Source of the DNA: Lactobacillus ultunensis DSM 16047
Lineage (GTDB): Bacteria; Bacillota; Bacilli; Lactobacillales; Lactobacillaceae
Assembly: GCF_001436305.1 (NCBI RefSeq)
Contig: NZ_AZFO01000007.1
Span: 1 to 64,000 of the forward strand
Length of the DNA: 64,000 bases
Direction: 5' to 3'
The translations under genes and the position numbers were made by a program. The notes under the pieces were generated by a model, which was given only the letters and a program-made list of their open reading frames with translations, was not told the DNA's origin and did no database searches. Positions 40,251 through 63,664 of this stretch are shown piece after piece; within the stretch, counting starts at the first letter, position 1; each line of letters opens with the position of its first letter.

Positions 40251-41126
40251 TTATTTTGCTAACTTTTTACCTAATTCAATAATGTACTTCCGCAAAGCAT
40301 CACGCGTTTCAGGGTGCTGCAAGCCATATTGAATAGAAGTCTCAAGATAGCCTTCCTTGTTACCAACATCGAAACGTTCGCCCTTGAATACATGAGCGAA
40401 AACGCGTTGAGTTTCATTCATCTTGCCAATGGCATCAGTCAATTGAATTTCGCCACCACGACCTGGCTTTTGATGTTCAAGAATATCAAAAATTTCAGGT
40501 GTTAACAAGTAACGACCAATAATAGCCAAATCACTTGGAGCCTTATCTACTGCAGGCTTTTCTACAAAATTCTTAACATTGTACAAATCGTCTGCAATTT
40601 TGCCATCAGGCGCAATCACACCATACTTTGAAACTTCCTTGTGTGGCACCTTCATTACTGCCAAGGCAGGTGCATGAGTCTTGTCGTATTCATTGATTAA
40701 TTGCTTGGTCAAAGGAATCTTGTCCTTCATCAAATCATCGCCAAGCATAATCACGAATGGCTCATTGCTCACGAAACTACGGGCACGGTAAACGGCATCC
40801 CTCAACCCAGCCAGGTGTGGTTGACGAGTGTAATACAAGTTGATTCCTAAATTGATAATATCTTGAGTCAACTTCAATAATTGTGTCTTACCAGTCTTAG
40901 CCAAATCTTGTTCCAATTCTGGGTTAGAATCAAAGTGGTTTTCAATCGCGCGCTTGTTCTTTCCAGTAACGATTAAAATATCTTCGATACCAGAAGCCTT
41001 AGCCTCTTCCACAATAAATTGAATCGTTAGCTTATCAAAATATTTCCTTAGGCATTACCTTGGTTGCAGGTAAAAAAAACGCGTACCCAAGCCTGTTGCG
41101 GGAATCACGGCCTTTCTAACTTTCAT
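40251..41126 (-). pseudogene. galU: galU (UDP-glucose pyrophosphorylase), copy A, broken N terminus
   Basis: The original gene made UDP-glucose from UTP and glucose-1-phosphate. The ATG at 41124-41126 with a GGGAGAG-type site starts correctly ([17 protein letters not shown]), but an over-long T8 tract shifts the frame and leads to a stop. A second lesion about 50 bases later removes roughly ten bases where KE(I/M)LPIVDK is expected. From [23 protein letters not shown] onward the frame is intact to the end (253 codons). The loss covers the nucleotide-binding G-G-x-G-T-R region, so any internal start product would be inactive. A second damaged copy lies 4 kb away. Confidence 0.88.
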
Positions 41127-41271
41127 TTTTTCTCTCCCATCAACTAGTAATATAAATATATTTTACTATGTTTACGTATATTTAGCCTTGCTTCCTTCAT
41201 ATTTGCAACTAATTATTTTCATAAAATAATTGGGTTGATTTACATATCAATCCTTTATTAAATCCAACTTT

Positions 41272-45124: not shown

Positions 45125-45534
45125 ATGCTTTTTGCGCAATCATATTAATTCTTTGTGTGGCACTTTCTCATTAAGTCATCGTCCCATCTAACGTCCATGG
45201 TAAATCGTATTCCCTCGTAGTTAACGCATGTAGTACAAGTTAATGCCAAGATTAGCGATCCCTTCTTAGGTCAACTTAAGCAACTCTGACCTACCGGTCT
45301 TTTGTAAATCTTGTTCCAACCCAGAGTTTGAGTCAAAATGGCTTTCAATCGCACGTTTATTCTTACCCGTAATGATCAAAATATCTTTAATACCTGAAGC
45401 CTTAGCCTTTTCCACGATAAATTGAATCATCGGCTTGTCCACAATTGGTAGCATTTCCTTAGGTAATGCCTTAGTTGCTGGCAAAAAACGCATACCCAAA
45501 CCGGTTGCAGAATAACCGCTTTTCTTACTTTCAT
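45125..45534 (-). pseudogene. galU: galU, copy B, truncated and frameshifted
   Basis: A second galU start region: the ATG at 45532-45534 (site GGAGAG) opens MKVRKAVI, then one C is missing (ATTCTGCA instead of ATTCCTGCA) and the frame shifts. The correct frame then runs from [19 protein letters not shown] to [11 protein letters not shown], followed by a stop. Beyond it LGINLYYMR and DDDLM and KVPHKE can still be read as scraps with a large internal deletion. It is thus a 5' fragment, whereas copy A is damaged at its own 5' end. Neither can make a functional enzyme. Confidence 0.85.
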
Positions 45535-45717
45535 ATTATTCTCTCCTCATATCAATCAATTTGACGATTATGTTTTACAATGGTTAAAAGCATCGAATCT
45601 TGTTTTCTTCAAAATCGTATGTTGTGGAAGTTGTAAAATAATCTGATGGGTTACAATCGAGGATGAGTTATGTAGCTTTATTATTTTACGCTCTCAATTA
45701 CTACACGTAATCATCAG

Positions 45718-47223
45718 CTACTCTGCTTTTAATTTCTTATCTTTAGCCGTATTTTCTTGCAATAAACCTAAATCAGTATCTTCAAAAATTTTATTCTTTA
45801 TTTCAATTTTTTTCTTTCCTTTTAATTTGTAATCATAAATTGAAGCTATGATGATTTGATTATCCTCAAAATACTTATTTAAGATATCAATGACTTTTTT
45901 TATATTAGATTGTGTAACTTCCCTACCACTAGGTGAATCTAAAACAACTGGAAGTTTAACATTAGTATACTTTTCAATAACTTTAATATATGCCATTTTG
46001 AATGAAAACACTACTTTATAATATTGAGTACCACTAATTGATTTTATATCATGTGTTAGTAAATAATTAGTATGTGATTTTATTACGTCTTCTACTCCTA
46101 AAATCTTCGCAAATCTTTTTATCCAGTTTTCTGTTTCTTCAATTATTTCCTTATTTTTATTAAACTCTGTATTAATATCTTTATTTAAAGACTCTAATTC
46201 ATATTCAATATTTTCCTGTTTTTTTTCAATAAGATCTCTATTAATCTTAATTTGTCCTAGTGCATTTAATGAACTTTCAACTACGTCCTCTGTGGAAAAA
46301 AGAGTATTAACATCTTGATCTAATTTTTTATTGAGCTGCGCCTCTTTTTTTTCAACTTCATTCAAATCTAATTGCAAGCTTATTAATTCTGTTCTTAAGA
46401 AATCTATCGTATCCTTAAAATTTATTAAGTTATTTTGTTTTTTACTTACTACAATTGGATGATCTTCATTTTCTGGATTTTTCACGAGTAAATTCAAACT
46501 ATATATATAATTTTCTAAATTATCTGTACGTTTTATATATTTTTTTAACCTACTAATTTTGTTTTGTAAGAACTGCTTTCTTACCTTTATATTTTTATAT
46601 TCTTTAAGATCTTCCTCATTCACCTTTGAATCTGAATCATTTGTTCTATTTGAATCTCGTGTAAATTCTTCTAATTTAAGAATTGCTTTTGTCTCATCAT
46701 GGATTTTTCTTAAATTATTTTGTTCATCTATCATACTAATTAAATCTTTATTTTCACTAGATAAACCAATTAGTAAGTCTCTAACATTAAAACTAATATT
46801 TCCTATTACTTTTCCTCTATTTAACAAAGTCCATCCTTTATCTTGCTCTAAATAAATAGCACCTATCAAATTCTCTAAAGTTGCTAATGAATCTATTCCC
46901 CATATTAAGGAATACCATTCAGTCAAATTAGCTGCAACAGGATCAGTGTAAAATATTTCTCCATCCTTTTTTAATTCTAAATAGTCAGAATAACGATATG
47001 CCTCATAAGTGTTTCCATCACGCTCAAAAGTTATCCAAATTTTTAAATTTTTGAATTTTAACTTATACGTACTGGGAATCGGATATCCTAAACCATAAAA
47101 TAATATTCTCAAAATAGTACTTTTCCCTACTGAATTTTTTTTACTATTTATTATTGTCTTTAACGAAAAGGATAAAACTCTAATTCCTTCAGATGATACT
47201 ATCTTTAACTTCTTGATAATCAT
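45718..47223 (-). CDS. ABC/SMC-like ATPase of a Lamassu/ABC-three-component-type system
   Basis: A 501-residue coiled-coil ABC ATPase. Residues 1-45 hold the P-loop (KKNSVGKST, 28-36, whose first Gly is Lys), a Q-loop-like IYLEQDKGW is near 122-130, long coiled coils span about 165-370, the ABC signature variant is SISGTQ...FSFKMAYI (395-412), and Walker B is LPVVLDSPSGRE (424-435). The family known from SMC-type defence ATPases (LmuB of Lamassu; the ATPase of ABC-three-component systems) has these same blocks. Its start codon overlaps the upstream nuclease-like gene as TAATG, so the two proteins are made together. The region is more AT-rich than its neighbours, suggesting transfer. Defence is inferred, not shown. 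Confidence 0.75.
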   Translation of the reverse strand: MIIKKLKIVSSEGIRVLSFSLKTIINSKKNSVGKSTILRILFYGLGYPIPSTYKLKFKNLKIWITFERDGNTYEAYRYSDYLELKKDGEIFYTDPVAANLTEWYSLIWGIDSLATLENLIGAIYLEQDKGWTLLNRGKVIGNISFNVRDLLIGLSSENKDLISMIDEQNNLRKIHDETKAILKLEEFTRDSNRTNDSDSKVNEEDLKEYKNIKVRKQFLQNKISRLKKYIKRTDNLENYIYSLNLLVKNPENEDHPIVVSKKQNNLINFKDTIDFLRTELISLQLDLNEVEKKEAQLNKKLDQDVNTLFSTEDVVESSLNALGQIKINRDLIEKKQENIEYELESLNKDINTEFNKNKEIIEETENWIKRFAKILGVEDVIKSHTNYLLTHDIKSISGTQYYKVVFSFKMAYIKVIEKYTNVKLPVVLDSPSGREVTQSNIKKVIDILNKYFEDNQIIIASIYDYKLKGKKKIEIKNKIFEDTDLGLLQENTAKDKKLKAE

Positions 47224-48371
47224 TATATACTGAATTCCTCCCGCGTATTTTTGATAACACGTTGCTTATACAAAATTTTATATGTAAGGTACTTTAAACA
47301 ACCTTTTTGTATCTCTTCATCTTTTTCATCCATTGGAAAATAAGATTTTAATTGTTTATCTTCACCTTCTTGATCAATAAAGGCATTTAATTTTTCATCT
47401 TCATTATTATATTTTGACGCATCAAATTCATAAAAATCTGCCAATATTTTATTTATTACTTCAATATTTTGTGACTGTTCATCAATAAATCCTTTAGCAT
47501 ATGTCTCTACATCTGCTTGTTCAAATATAGGAATATTTTTTTCTAAATATGTTTCAGGTGCTCCCTGTACAATCTTATAAATAAATAAACTACAAATTTC
47601 ATTCTTTTTTATCGTTAACTTAAAATTAGTAGCATTGTTTCCGTATCTTCGATATAACTCTGCTTCAATATTATCTCTTAATACATTAGTATCTCTTTCT
47701 AAAATCTCATCTACCAATTTATTCAAGGCTGCACATTCTTTGATATTATCTTCAAGATTTTCCTCATTTTTTCTCGAAAAGATTAAAGTAGCAACCGAAA
47801 CCTTATTCCAATCAAAATAATAATCAGTACTCAAATATCCACCTTTTTTTAATTGATTTTTTGCTTCATCTGCCCGCTCATTTAAATAATCTTTTCCCTC
47901 TTTAGGAATATCATTAGCATAATTTTGTACTAATAATTCATCTTTATTTGGTTTCCACAAAGCTCGCCAAACTTCGTCTGTTAGCTTTAACGGATTAAGA
48001 AAGTTACTAATATATATTAATTGTGAATAATTATTCTTTTTAATATTACTAGTATTTATTAACGTATTTAAAGCAGCTGTACAATGTTGTGTAGCATTAG
48101 AAGTATCTTCAATAGATTTACCAGTAGATTTAGCCTGAACATAAATTGGTTTTTTATTTTTGAAATATAACTCAATATCTTCCGTTTTCCCTTCTACTTT
48201 TATTTCTGTTAAATTTTTTCTATATTTTAATCCCATCACTATTGCAGCAGTAATTTGAAATAACCATCCCCATGCCGAATAACTGGCCTGTGTATTTTTC
48301 TCTTTGTCTTCAGGCTTTAATTCTTTAGAATCTAGATCATCAGTCGAAAATAAGCTTAACTGTTTTTCCAT
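47223..48371 (-). CDS. Restriction-endonuclease-fold protein (DUF4297/LmuA-like) coupled to SMC ATPase
   Basis: A 382-residue protein. Its N-terminal region resembles DUF4297-type nucleases: a helix with GWLFQITAAIVMGL, then acidic residues in VEGKTEDIELYF and the QxK motif in YVQAKS (Asp65, Glu67, Gln79, Lys81), the layout of a PD-(D/E)xK nuclease core. The rest is helical and charged and may contact the partner ATPase; it resembles no catalytic domain I recognise. The ATG at 48369-48371 is chosen over one three codons upstream. In Lamassu and related systems such an effector is paired with an SMC ATPase, exactly as here. No third (LmuC-like) gene is seen. The nuclease assignment is moderate. 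Confidence 0.65.
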   Translation of the reverse strand: MEKQLSLFSTDDLDSKELKPEDKEKNTQASYSAWGWLFQITAAIVMGLKYRKNLTEIKVEGKTEDIELYFKNKKPIYVQAKSTGKSIEDTSNATQHCTAALNTLINTSNIKKNNYSQLIYISNFLNPLKLTDEVWRALWKPNKDELLVQNYANDIPKEGKDYLNERADEAKNQLKKGGYLSTDYYFDWNKVSVATLIFSRKNEENLEDNIKECAALNKLVDEILERDTNVLRDNIEAELYRRYGNNATNFKLTIKKNEICSLFIYKIVQGAPETYLEKNIPIFEQADVETYAKGFIDEQSQNIEVINKILADFYEFDASKYNNEDEKLNAFIDQEGEDKQLKSYFPMDEKDEEIQKGCLKYLTYKILYKQRVIKNTREEFSI

Positions 48372-48466
48372 TTTTATCATCTTCTATAATTTACGTTTAT
48401 ACTTTCTTTATTAATGATATCAAAAAATCTCGGACTTTTAGACACTTGATATGGTAGAAAAAGAAA

Positions 48467-48566: not shown

Positions 48567-50360
48567 TTAAAACGAAGCATAAAGATAAGGTGGCTGCTCA
48601 AGCGCCTTATTTAGACCATCTTTATCAAACTCATCAAGATCTATGTCACCAATCCAATCAAGCAGGTCGGGATCCAATTGTGCTTTAGGCGTATCATAGT
48701 AGTCCTGTAAGCTCCAGACTCCTCCAATGTCTTCAATAATACCTAATCCTTTACCTGAAATACCTAATCCTTTACCTGAAATAATTTGCGGATACTTAAG
48801 CTGTACATTTTTATAAGAAATCTTCTTAACATTAACTTCGATTTCCCAATTATCCCCATAATCATATGTGAGCAACAGCTTATCGCCTTCATTTAAAGTA
48901 GATACTTTTACATCTTCAGAATTTACAGCATCCTCAGTCCGCCATTCACTCATCATCTCGATATTTTGCTGATTTTCATACCGAGTATCAGTTTTAGGAT
49001 TATAAAGATCATACATATGACCTCCTGCTGCATTAAACATTAGTAAAAGTGCCTGTGATAAAGTTTCTAGACTACTATTACCATTGATAACAAACCTGCG
49101 CCAAATTAATGGCTTGAATCCTTTTAGCTTTGCTCGAATTTCATACATGGCAGCGTTTCGTTTTTTATTTTCTTTTATTTCACCTTTATTTTGAGTAAGT
49201 TTTGCCTTTTCACCAAATTTCATTAACTTCATGACAATATCAGCTAATTCTGCATCAGTTTTCTTATCATCAGGTTTTTCATTAAATTGCTTTATATCTG
49301 TTAAGAGGTCTTCAGTCATCTGCTTAACATTGCCATTTGTGTTTTCATCCGCATATTCATCTTCAGTAAAGGTTACAAACTGCTGTTGACAGATATCATT
49401 AACTCTATTTGAATCCGCTTGAGTAACTAACCCTACTCGGCTTAAGAAAATATAAAAATCATTAAACATCATTAAAAGACCAGCAATTATGGTCTTGAAG
49501 TGTTCATCAGAATGACCAAAGTCTGGCTTAATTCCATAAAAAATACACAGCCAGATATAGTAACTCACATCTCCTAAATTACTATTTACAAAGCGCAACC
49601 TTCTCGAAAGCAAAAAATTATTTGTAAAGTCTCTTAATTGATCTCTAGGATTTCCAGTAAAGACAGCAGAATCCATCTGTGCATTTTTCAAATATTGATC
49701 AATAATCTTTTCATTGTTTTTCTTGATTTCAGCAGTGATCTCATCATTTTTAGAAATATCTTTATTTAAATATTCTTCCCAATGAATTGGATCAATAAAT
49801 TTCGGACTTAAATCGTAATACTTAACATTTGCTCGAGGACGTTTAGTCTTGATAGGAAAGACCTGATTAACTTGGAAAGCTATTGTTTCAATTAAACGTG
49901 ACATATAATCTTGTGACAGGTTCATCAAAAGCAGTGACAAAACTAACGCTTTATCCTCAACAACCATATTTTTATTCTTAAAATTAAATTTTTGGTTTAA
50001 ATCTTGTGAGTTATTCTGAATATAATTCATCAGATCCTTAGTTATTGAGCTATCAATTGAAGAGCTATAAACTAAATTAAATCCATCTTCTGAATTTGCA
50101 TTAAAAATAGAATCTCTTTGCTGCAGAGTAATATATTCAAAACTATCTATGACGATAGCTAAATTATCTTGAAATTCATCTTTATCAATTTTCTCAGTAA
50201 CTACCGTTATTCCTGAATCAATCTCTACAAATAAATAATACTTTTCTTTGTTAAAAGTAAACTTAGTTAATTGCCAATTATTAAAGGGCGTAATTTTCTT
50301 TCTTGAAGTATGTCTACCAATTTCATGATAGATATCTTGACCATATTGAATCATTGACAT
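48567..50360 (-). CDS. Uncharacterised protein with C-terminal PRiA4_ORF3 (IS1096 TnpR-like) domain, copy A
   Basis: A 597-residue protein. Its C-terminal part (about 405-590) matches the plasmid pRiA4b ORF-3-like fold (AKLKGFKPLIWRRFVINGNSSLETL, DYGDNWEIEV, DIGGVWSLQDYYD). Residues 1 to about 150 look like a DUF6933-type module (IQYGQDI..., YYLFVEIDSG), and the middle is helical with an acidic linker. A six-residue tandem repeat (SGKGLGI twice) sits in the C-terminal domain. Paralogue at 62.1-63.7 kb shares all three parts. Function is unknown; PRiA4_ORF3 domains are often found near mobile elements. It lies directly upstream of the nuclease/ATPase pair. The start has GAGGG upstream. Confidence 0.6.
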   Translation of the reverse strand: MSMIQYGQDIYHEIGRHTSRKKITPFNNWQLTKFTFNKEKYYLFVEIDSGITVVTEKIDKDEFQDNLAIVIDSFEYITLQQRDSIFNANSEDGFNLVYSSSIDSSITKDLMNYIQNNSQDLNQKFNFKNKNMVVEDKALVLSLLLMNLSQDYMSRLIETIAFQVNQVFPIKTKRPRANVKYYDLSPKFIDPIHWEEYLNKDISKNDEITAEIKKNNEKIIDQYLKNAQMDSAVFTGNPRDQLRDFTNNFLLSRRLRFVNSNLGDVSYYIWLCIFYGIKPDFGHSDEHFKTIIAGLLMMFNDFYIFLSRVGLVTQADSNRVNDICQQQFVTFTEDEYADENTNGNVKQMTEDLLTDIKQFNEKPDDKKTDAELADIVMKLMKFGEKAKLTQNKGEIKENKKRNAAMYEIRAKLKGFKPLIWRRFVINGNSSLETLSQALLLMFNAAGGHMYDLYNPKTDTRYENQQNIEMMSEWRTEDAVNSEDVKVSTLNEGDKLLLTYDYGDNWEIEVNVKKISYKNVQLKYPQIISGKGLGISGKGLGIIEDIGGVWSLQDYYDTPKAQLDPDLLDWIGDIDLDEFDKDGLNKALEQPPYLYASF

Positions 50361-50479: not shown

Positions 50480-50715
50480 TCGAGCCAGAAGCTTAATAGA
50501 GGTTCAAGGCGGCTAGAGATTACAGTTTCAAACCATAATATCAAAAACTCGTAATTAGGCACGCTCTAGCCTTCCAAGAGATTGTTGTGCATTGCCTTTC
50601 CATGAAAATGGTAAAGCCACAAACAACATATCTAATATAGACAAATTAAATTCTTCACCTACATACTTAGTTGTAGACAAAATCACCCACGGATTTTCTA
50701 AGTATACGTTTTATT
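50480..50715 (-). pseudogene. Remnant of an SSL2-type superfamily II helicase C terminus
   Basis: Read on the minus strand this gives LENPWVILSTTKYVGEEFNLS followed by LDMLFVALPFSWKGN and QQSLGRLERA, then a stop, then RVFDIMV. These match the C-terminal helicase block (ATGKYIGEGFD, then LDTLF..PISWKG, then GRLHR, then VYDYVD) of SSL2/COG1061-like enzymes. Only this fragment is readable; flanking frames are closed. The rest of the 630-base gap (50361-50924) shows a hairpin at 50714-50736 and nothing else I can support. Such helicases are common in defence islands. Confidence 0.65.
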
Positions 50716-62122: not shown

Positions 62123-63664
62123 TTATTTAGCTAAACCCATATTTAAATTATCTATATCAAACTTATCCAAATCAATTCTTTCTCCTAACCAATCTAAAAG
62201 GTCGGGATCCAATTTACTCTTAGGCGTATCATAATACTCTTGCAATTCATATACACCACCAATATCATCAATGATGCCATAGCCTTTTCCAGCAATAATT
62301 TGTGGATGTAACAAAGGTTGTTTAGATTGATAAACTTTTTCAATTTTAACATCAAATTGCCAATTATCCCCATAATCATAAACTAATAATAAGTTAGTAT
62401 TTTGAGTAAAAAATGATACTTTAGCTTTTTCAGGATCAAGTGATTCATCATCAAAAGTCGAAATGCCAAAACGTTGATGACATTTTAAATTATATAGATC
62501 GTACATGTGTCCGAATTCTGCATTAAATATGTATAAAACCGTTTGCTCCAATTCAGCTACTGTACTATTACCACTAATAATAAATTGACGCCACATAACA
62601 GGTTTAAAATCACGTAGTTGGGCTTTAATTTCATAAGTCATATTATTTCTTGACTTATTTTCTAGTTTTAATTCAGCCAACGAATTTTCCTTAAATATAT
62701 AATTATTATTCTTTTGCAATTCAACATGTAAATAATGGAGGTTTTCTGCTACTAGATTAGCATCTTTCTCAGTAATCAAACCTACCTCAGCCAAAAAACG
62801 ATAAAATTCAATAAAGATCTTAATGAAATCCGTTAAAAGGTCACCATAATATTGTTCTTTTACGGTTTTCAACCAAATATAAGAAGTAGCTTCTGCTAAA
62901 TTACTAGTAGGAAATAATATCTTCTTTTGCAATAAATAGTAATTTAAAAAGTCAGCTAAAAGTCCTGGTTCAATAGTATATGGATCTAATTTATCTTGTT
63001 GCATAAAATTCCAACATATTTTCAGATTATTTTTTCTAACTTCTTTTACTATTTTAGCATTACCTCTTTTTGCTTTTCCTTCGTATTGTTTCCATTTTAA
63101 AAGATCTTCAAATTCTGTTGTAGCAATAAAATGGCCTCGTGATGCTGGAATAGGAAAAGTTTCATTTACATTAAGTATTAGCTTAGTAAACATATTATTT
63201 CCAACTTCAAAGTTCAGCGTAGGAATAGCAGCAGAAGCAGTTACTAATTTTTTAACTTGTGAAGTCTTGGAATCAGCTAGATCTGTCAATTGCAAAAATA
63301 CATTTATATTATTTTCTAACATGTCTTTAATACTTTTAAAGGCTTTAACATTAGTTGAACGATTATTATAAACAAAATTAATTTTATCAGTTTTAAAAAT
63401 TTCAATTAGTTTATTTTGCTGTGTAGGTGTAATAAAAATAAAGTCTTTAACAACTCCTTGTATCACATCATGAAACTGCTTAATTTCTAAGTTAGTCAAC
63501 AAAAGTGGCATTCCTGTTGCTTTCTCAACTAATAAATAATATTTTTTACCCTTAATATCAATTGTATCTACAGTCCACAACTGAAATAAACCATTAATTT
63601 TACTTTTAGGCTTGTTATCCTTTATTTCCTTTGTTAAGGATCGCCCATATTGAATTTGAAGCAT
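62123..63664 (-). CDS. Uncharacterised protein with C-terminal PRiA4_ORF3 (IS1096 TnpR-like) domain, copy B
   Basis: A 513-residue paralogue of the 48.6-kb protein. The C-terminal region (about 341-505) has the PRiA4_ORF3 blocks (AQLRDFKPVMWRQFIISGNSTVAEL, DYGDNWQFDV, DIGGVYELQEYYDTP). The N-terminal module (IQYGRSLTKEIK..., YYLLVEKATG) is DUF6933-like, and the middle is helical. It lacks the long acidic linker and the six-residue duplication of the other copy, so it is shorter. It ends 120 bases before tRNA-Thr, a common kind of insertion site. Function is unknown. The ATG has a weak GAGG site upstream. Confidence 0.6.
   Translation of the reverse strand: MLQIQYGRSLTKEIKDNKPKSKINGLFQLWTVDTIDIKGKKYYLLVEKATGMPLLLTNLEIKQFHDVIQGVVKDFIFITPTQQNKLIEIFKTDKINFVYNNRSTNVKAFKSIKDMLENNINVFLQLTDLADSKTSQVKKLVTASAAIPTLNFEVGNNMFTKLILNVNETFPIPASRGHFIATTEFEDLLKWKQYEGKAKRGNAKIVKEVRKNNLKICWNFMQQDKLDPYTIEPGLLADFLNYYLLQKKILFPTSNLAEATSYIWLKTVKEQYYGDLLTDFIKIFIEFYRFLAEVGLITEKDANLVAENLHYLHVELQKNNNYIFKENSLAELKLENKSRNNMTYEIKAQLRDFKPVMWRQFIISGNSTVAELEQTVLYIFNAEFGHMYDLYNLKCHQRFGISTFDDESLDPEKAKVSFFTQNTNLLLVYDYGDNWQFDVKIEKVYQSKQPLLHPQIIAGKGYGIIDDIGGVYELQEYYDTPKSKLDPDLLDWLGERIDLDKFDIDNLNMGLAK

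Follow-up and report, generated by a model that had tools for sequence, protein, structure and literature searches.

The two adjacent genes described here, A and B, probably make up a compact defence system with a mode of action resembling that of Lamassu type I, in which B would sense abnormal DNA and thereby unleash A; this reading is founded on homology and on the analogy to published systems, and we hold it with considerable confidence. Both genes lie on the minus strand of the window, i.e. the whole analysed stretch of 64,000 nucleotides from contig NZ_AZFO01000007.1 of Lactobacillus ultunensis DSM 16047. In the passages of PMC10586767 and PMC12409362 that deal with their mechanism, Lamassu systems are described as consisting of an SMC-like sensor and an effector nuclease that is freed on activation and becomes a homotetramer, with an abortive outcome. 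Because of the homology of A and B to LmuA and LmuB, respectively, A is assigned the role of the effector and B that of the sensor. Several features point to such a system: B is homologous to LmuB and A, more weakly, to LmuA; motifs are conserved; the two genes are strictly paired and were apparently transferred as a unit; and their neighbours are of the defence type. The family is already known: PADLOC lists both proteins as PDC-M46A and PDC-M46B, a candidate defence system, and the first-pass annotation, which had called the system under-described, was therefore correct only in part. The passages of PMC11811056 that concern PDC-M46 call it unpublished and mention one case that was assigned to PDC-M46 by PADLOC and to Lamassu by DefenseFinder. 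The adjacent, overlapping genes of the window match both PADLOC profiles, and our comparison found no feature that would distinguish them from PDC-M46.

Gene A (47223..48380, minus strand) codes for a predicted LmuA-like effector of 385 residues when read from its first ATG, and gene B (45718..47223, minus strand) for a predicted LmuB-like ABC/SMC-type ATPase of 501 residues. Both open reading frames and their overlap are present as initially claimed, with the TAA of A and the ATG of B having one base in common in the sequence TAATG (47221..47225, minus strand). Only the span of gene A needed a correction, as the earlier end at 48371 is a second ATG three codons inside the frame, and the first ATG extends the gene to 48380. 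The AT-rich base use ascribed to the pair is also real: the G+C content is 25.2% in gene B and 27.5% in gene A, versus 35.9% in the whole window. In comparison with the pair of locus L011, which is about 89-90% identical, dN/dS is 0.13 for A and 0.09 for B, and in comparison with the pair of L012 (67% identical) it is 0.16 and 0.12. These values of 0.09-0.16 indicate that A and B are real, selected genes; they are under purifying selection and are more than chance reading frames.

A scan of genome contigs gave 58 loci (L011-L068), and 52 of these (L011-L062) contain a B frame of this family. The alignments of 45 rows comprise the window protein and those of 44 of the 52 loci, leaving out L026, L029, L032, L033, L037, L043, L044 and L049; in these, A was short, split or truncated, or the locus was judged by eye to be a near-duplicate of one already included. 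Seven classical LmuA/LmuB pairs served as controls, namely L065-L068 and, found with an LmuB profile, L069-L071. PADLOC detects LmuA and LmuB in each of L065, L067 and L068, and L065-L068 are two-gene Lamassu systems of the classical kind.

On the level of sequence, B is related to the Lamassu ATPase LmuB over almost its whole length. In PADLOC, it matches PDC-M46B with an E-value of 1.7e-133 and LmuB with 5.5e-18; in Pfam, nothing is found for gene B at E 0.1. When the B family is aligned by hhalign with the LmuB controls, the probability is 99.7% (E 2.3e-26) over 465 columns, and a plain profile search with the B profile of the family recovers five of the seven LmuB controls at E 1e-3. A ten-row B profile that was compared with the PDB has the solved LmuB structure 9ux7 as its best match (E 1.2e-15). 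The P-loop, the SISGTQ signature and the DSPSG Walker B that had been claimed for gene B are all present. The Walker A motif (47119..47145, minus strand; residues 27-35) follows the pattern S-x-x-N-x-x-G-K-S/T in 45/45 rows; in gene B it reads SKKNSVGKST, with a serine in place of the first glycine, and among 22 further members the pattern S-x-x-N-x-x-G-K is found in 19, the other three having one extra residue. The signature SISGTQ (46024..46041, minus strand) covers residues 395-400, with G398 kept in all 45 rows and S397 in 41. The Walker B motif DSPSGRE (45919..45939, minus strand; residues 429-435) has the form DSPxxxE in all rows of the alignment and the form DxPxxxE in all 22 further members, two of which have DNP. 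ABC ATPases usually have their catalytic glutamate where the Walker B of gene B has a serine. In the printed alignment, the Walker A serine and the DS of Walker B also occur in 9ux7, together with a CxxC motif, and the altered Walker motifs are thus not private to the B family but are shared with Lamassu type I.

The least expected feature of B is that it is a short, hook-less LmuB. The CxxC zinc hook is present in all seven LmuB controls, in contrast to 0/45 rows of the B alignment and none of the 22 further members, and its site in classical LmuB is occupied in B by a conserved apex segment at about residues 233-262 (46438..46527, minus strand). The B proteins are also shorter, with 473-501 residues versus 558-566 in classical LmuB, and about 50 residues are missing between the Walker motifs, which are 386-394 residues apart in the B family and 437-447 in the LmuB controls. 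A quick tree of 63 rows splits the seven LmuB proteins from the other 56 with an SH-aLRT support of 100; in this tree, long branches were flagged, and the support is SH-aLRT without bootstrap. According to the part of PMC10586767 that treats these motifs, the zinc hook (CPxC) is common in LmuB but not universal, and LmuB generally has a Glu-to-Gln exchange at the Walker B position. One may tentatively go further and regard the pair as a distinct hook-less branch of Lamassu, in which a conserved protein hinge of near-constant length replaces the zinc hook, and in which the ATPase, lacking the catalytic glutamate that is usual elsewhere, acts as a one-way switch, but we consider this extension somewhat doubtful. 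If it were true, an SMC-type sensor of foreign DNA would need neither a zinc-mediated dimerisation nor a third subunit.

In case of gene A, the relationship is more distant. Gene A matches the PADLOC profile PDC-M46A with E 3.4e-62, and so do all 45 A relatives. The predicted nuclease core (47991..48287, minus strand) spans residues 32-130 and contains Q42, E63, D68, Q82-x-K84, N126 and P130, all of which are kept in 45/45 rows, except for E63, which is kept in 44; in gene A itself, D68 and Q82-A-K84 are present. In the hhalign alignment of the A family with the LmuA controls (probability 95.0%, E 3.9e-8, residues 25-236), D68 and Q82-x-K84 fall on the D and the QxK of LmuA, whereas crossed controls reached probabilities of only 0.1% and 0.3%. 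Cap4_nuclease is matched by all seven LmuA controls and by six of the 45 A sequences (best E 1.6e-9), with no match in the other 39, and one LmuA profile is likewise matched by six of 45 (best E 2.6e-14). Three plasmid-borne relatives of A are annotated as "dsDNA nuclease domain-containing protein", and an A remnant in L103 passes the Pfam cut-off for Cap4_nuclease (31.7 versus 26.2 bits). The A protein of the window has no Pfam match at E 0.1 and no match to an LmuA profile in PADLOC, and the A profile of the family finds none of the seven LmuA controls at E 1e-3 in a plain profile search, which is why we regard the link between A and LmuA as distant. NCBIfam gave weak matches alone for A and B, far under its cut-offs. 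No solved LmuA was found in a PDB search with the LmuA controls. A ten-row A profile matched an N-terminal stretch of 64 positions in 8zue (E 9.4e-6), the anti-bacteriophage protein A (AbpA), whose partner is not known to be an SMC-like ATPase, but as this match disappeared with the 45-row profile, it carries little weight. Taken together, the A family carries motifs of the Cap4/DUF4297 type, and this evidence favours a nuclease, in agreement with what had been read from the sequence at first; the comparison with Lamassu made at the same time holds near end to end for B and at a distance for A.

The two genes form a constant pair. In 51 of the 52 loci, A is the gene immediately upstream of B, being split in L043, and the single exception is L049, where B is located at a contig end. 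The frames of A and B overlap in 72 of 76 loci that hold both genes, a set which includes some genomes under two identifiers. Pairwise distances of A and B proteins are correlated (Spearman 0.80), with 0 of 2000 permutations reaching a value as high. By blastn, the window and L011 have a stretch in common (45727..48427) that is 89% identical and consists of the two genes plus 47 bases upstream, but none of the flanks, although the L011 sequence continues for about 555 bases on the upstream side and for 6.2 kb on the downstream side, which suggests a transfer as a two-gene unit. Of flanking repeats that might be an insertion scar, there are only short, imperfect ones, and none frames the pair convincingly. 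In L006, L043, L079 and L083, A is in pieces and B is open (shortened in L083), for which sequencing errors are possible.

A recurrent third gene was not found: when the neighbours at 59 loci were clustered, B occurred in 59 loci, A in 58 and the next cluster in just eight, as had been anticipated when the pair was first described as lacking a third component. This absence is not unusual, since the original Lamassu type I has a two-gene layout, as PMC12409362 states. With this type, the pair shares the order with the predicted nuclease gene first and the D and QxK of the nuclease, and it differs in the shorter, hook-less B and in the name given by PADLOC, which is PDC-M46 and not Lamassu. Lamassu type II, ABC-3C and DdmABC likewise combine a nuclease effector with an SMC-like ATPase that has an altered Walker B, judging from the relevant portions of PMC10586767 and PMC12409362, but their middle component is missing here, and A and B overlap. 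Moreover, DdmC is described as having a Glu-to-Gln exchange where gene B has a serine. Lamassu type II and ABC-3C were rejected as assignments, as there is no gap between A and B and no recurrent third gene, and Wadjet (JetABC plus JetD) was rejected because no Jet profile was found by PADLOC in A, B or the next gene upstream.

The distribution of the pair is patchy. Own genome counted, it occurs in 5 of 75 genomes of the genus, in 9 of 397 of the family and in 2 of 398 of the phylum sample, and judging from record titles, relatives exist in Bacillota, Bacteroidota, Spirochaetota, Verrucomicrobiota, Lentisphaerota and one alphaproteobacterial MAG. B could in principle serve a housekeeping DNA repair similar to that of Rad50, as its N-terminal lobe has weak matches to Rad50 chains (best E 0.015), but the patchy occurrence, the transfer as a two-gene unit and the partnership with a predicted Cap4-type nuclease make such a role very improbable. 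Gene A is found in 12 of the 397 family genomes, nine times with B and three times as a partial match without a B match; these three are the loci L103, L104 and L105 of Lactobacillaceae. In L103 and L104, the gene that precedes the A fragment encodes a restriction endonuclease domain, as tested in L103.

The carriers include eight plasmid records, with A intact in six and split in L006 and L083, one phage record, and nine viral contigs with A adjacent to B in all of them; in the scan of viral contigs, the B sequence alone gave no relative, and the nine loci were obtained with the alignment. Such carriers, toxin-antitoxin genes nearby on some of the plasmids, and the four loci with a split A and an open or nearly open B, which would be expected if A is costly, are what one would predict if the pair served the maintenance of its plasmids, prophages or islands, either by acting as an addiction module or by keeping out rival plasmids and phages. 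The homology, however, is to Lamassu and not to toxin-antitoxin families, many copies reside on long chromosomal contigs, and relics of A remain without B in L103-L105, and we thus regard element maintenance as improbable in comparison with a Lamassu-like defence. In L007, L008, L053, L082 and L084, which are lactic acid bacterial plasmids and Fructobacillus, the pair has a small site-specific recombinase (about 196 residues) nearby, which is perhaps a device that shuffles defence genes.

With regard to the neighbourhood, 129 of 145 flanking proteins were scanned, namely the 108 nearest ones (one per side) and 21 of the 37 next ones, which were picked by hand. Pfam families therein include ResIII and DEAD (7 each), phage integrase (6), N6_Mtase and SWI2/SNF2 (4 each) as well as YhcG nuclease, HSDR_N and Methylase_S (3 each). 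As a control, 20 other genomes, of which 15 belong to the same genus, were sampled at one fixed position, which gave 120 proteins; G044 and G255 among these genomes have a pair or a Lamassu elsewhere, and the hosts differ between the sets. The 129 flanking proteins matched 345 different PADLOC families versus 41 families for the 120 control proteins, and none of the 25 Pfam families listed for the control, which had 196 further ones, belongs to restriction-modification or integrases. Because the neighbour set was partly hand-picked, this contrast is not a measured enrichment, but the recurrence of restriction-modification and integrase families beside the pair supports the defence neighbourhood that had been postulated.

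The restriction-modification neighbours, together with the nuclease motifs of A, would also fit a direct restriction, in which A cuts only the foreign DNA that B has recognised and the host is spared, which would place the pair nearer to Wadjet or to a restriction enzyme. We consider this unlikely: where PMC10586767 and PMC12409362 describe the mode of action of relatives, it is abortive, and a methylase or immunity gene was not found as a constant partner among the 59 clustered loci. In addition, relatives reside on plasmids of 7.6, 8.7, 9.0 and 9.9 kb. A system that cuts plasmids according to size should eliminate these, and their existence suggests that the pair does not attack small circles indiscriminately.

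For the favoured Lamassu-like mechanism, we infer the sensing, the release and assembly of A and the abortive outcome from the published Lamassu work. B is an SMC/Rad50-like ATPase that probably forms dimers, binds ATP and scans DNA, and it would keep A inactive until A is set free. Abnormal DNA, such as ends, hairpins or replication intermediates of phages or plasmids, would alter the shape of B, and the freed A would assemble and cut double-stranded DNA, so that the cell would be killed or stalled before the invader spreads. As the Walker B glutamate is missing, ATP hydrolysis by B may well be slow or absent, although the invariant E435, six residues on, could act in place of the missing glutamate.

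Lamassu systems, which are widespread in bacteria, act as alarms against phages and plasmids, and a short, two-gene, hook-less relative would be a handy minimal model of how SMC-like proteins sense foreign DNA. In lactic acid bacteria, whose phages spoil fermentations and in which small plasmids are common, the pair may shape phage resistance and plasmid content. The comparison also ties the catalogue entry PDC-M46 to a known, testable mechanism.

Some further observations concern the rest of the window. The "helicase relic" that had been noted near the pair was not confirmed: a scrap of 51 residues (50558-50710) resembles the end of a helicase by eye but has no Pfam match. A galU gene at 40251-41136 has an apparent frameshift close to the N-terminal end, and immediately downstream of the pair there is another galU remnant (45217-45545), with 75% identity over 332 bases. 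Two genes, at 48567-50360 and 62123-63664, each encode a PRiA4_ORF3 domain and have a weak DUF6933 match, and the former contains an exact 21-base tandem repeat at 48738-48779.
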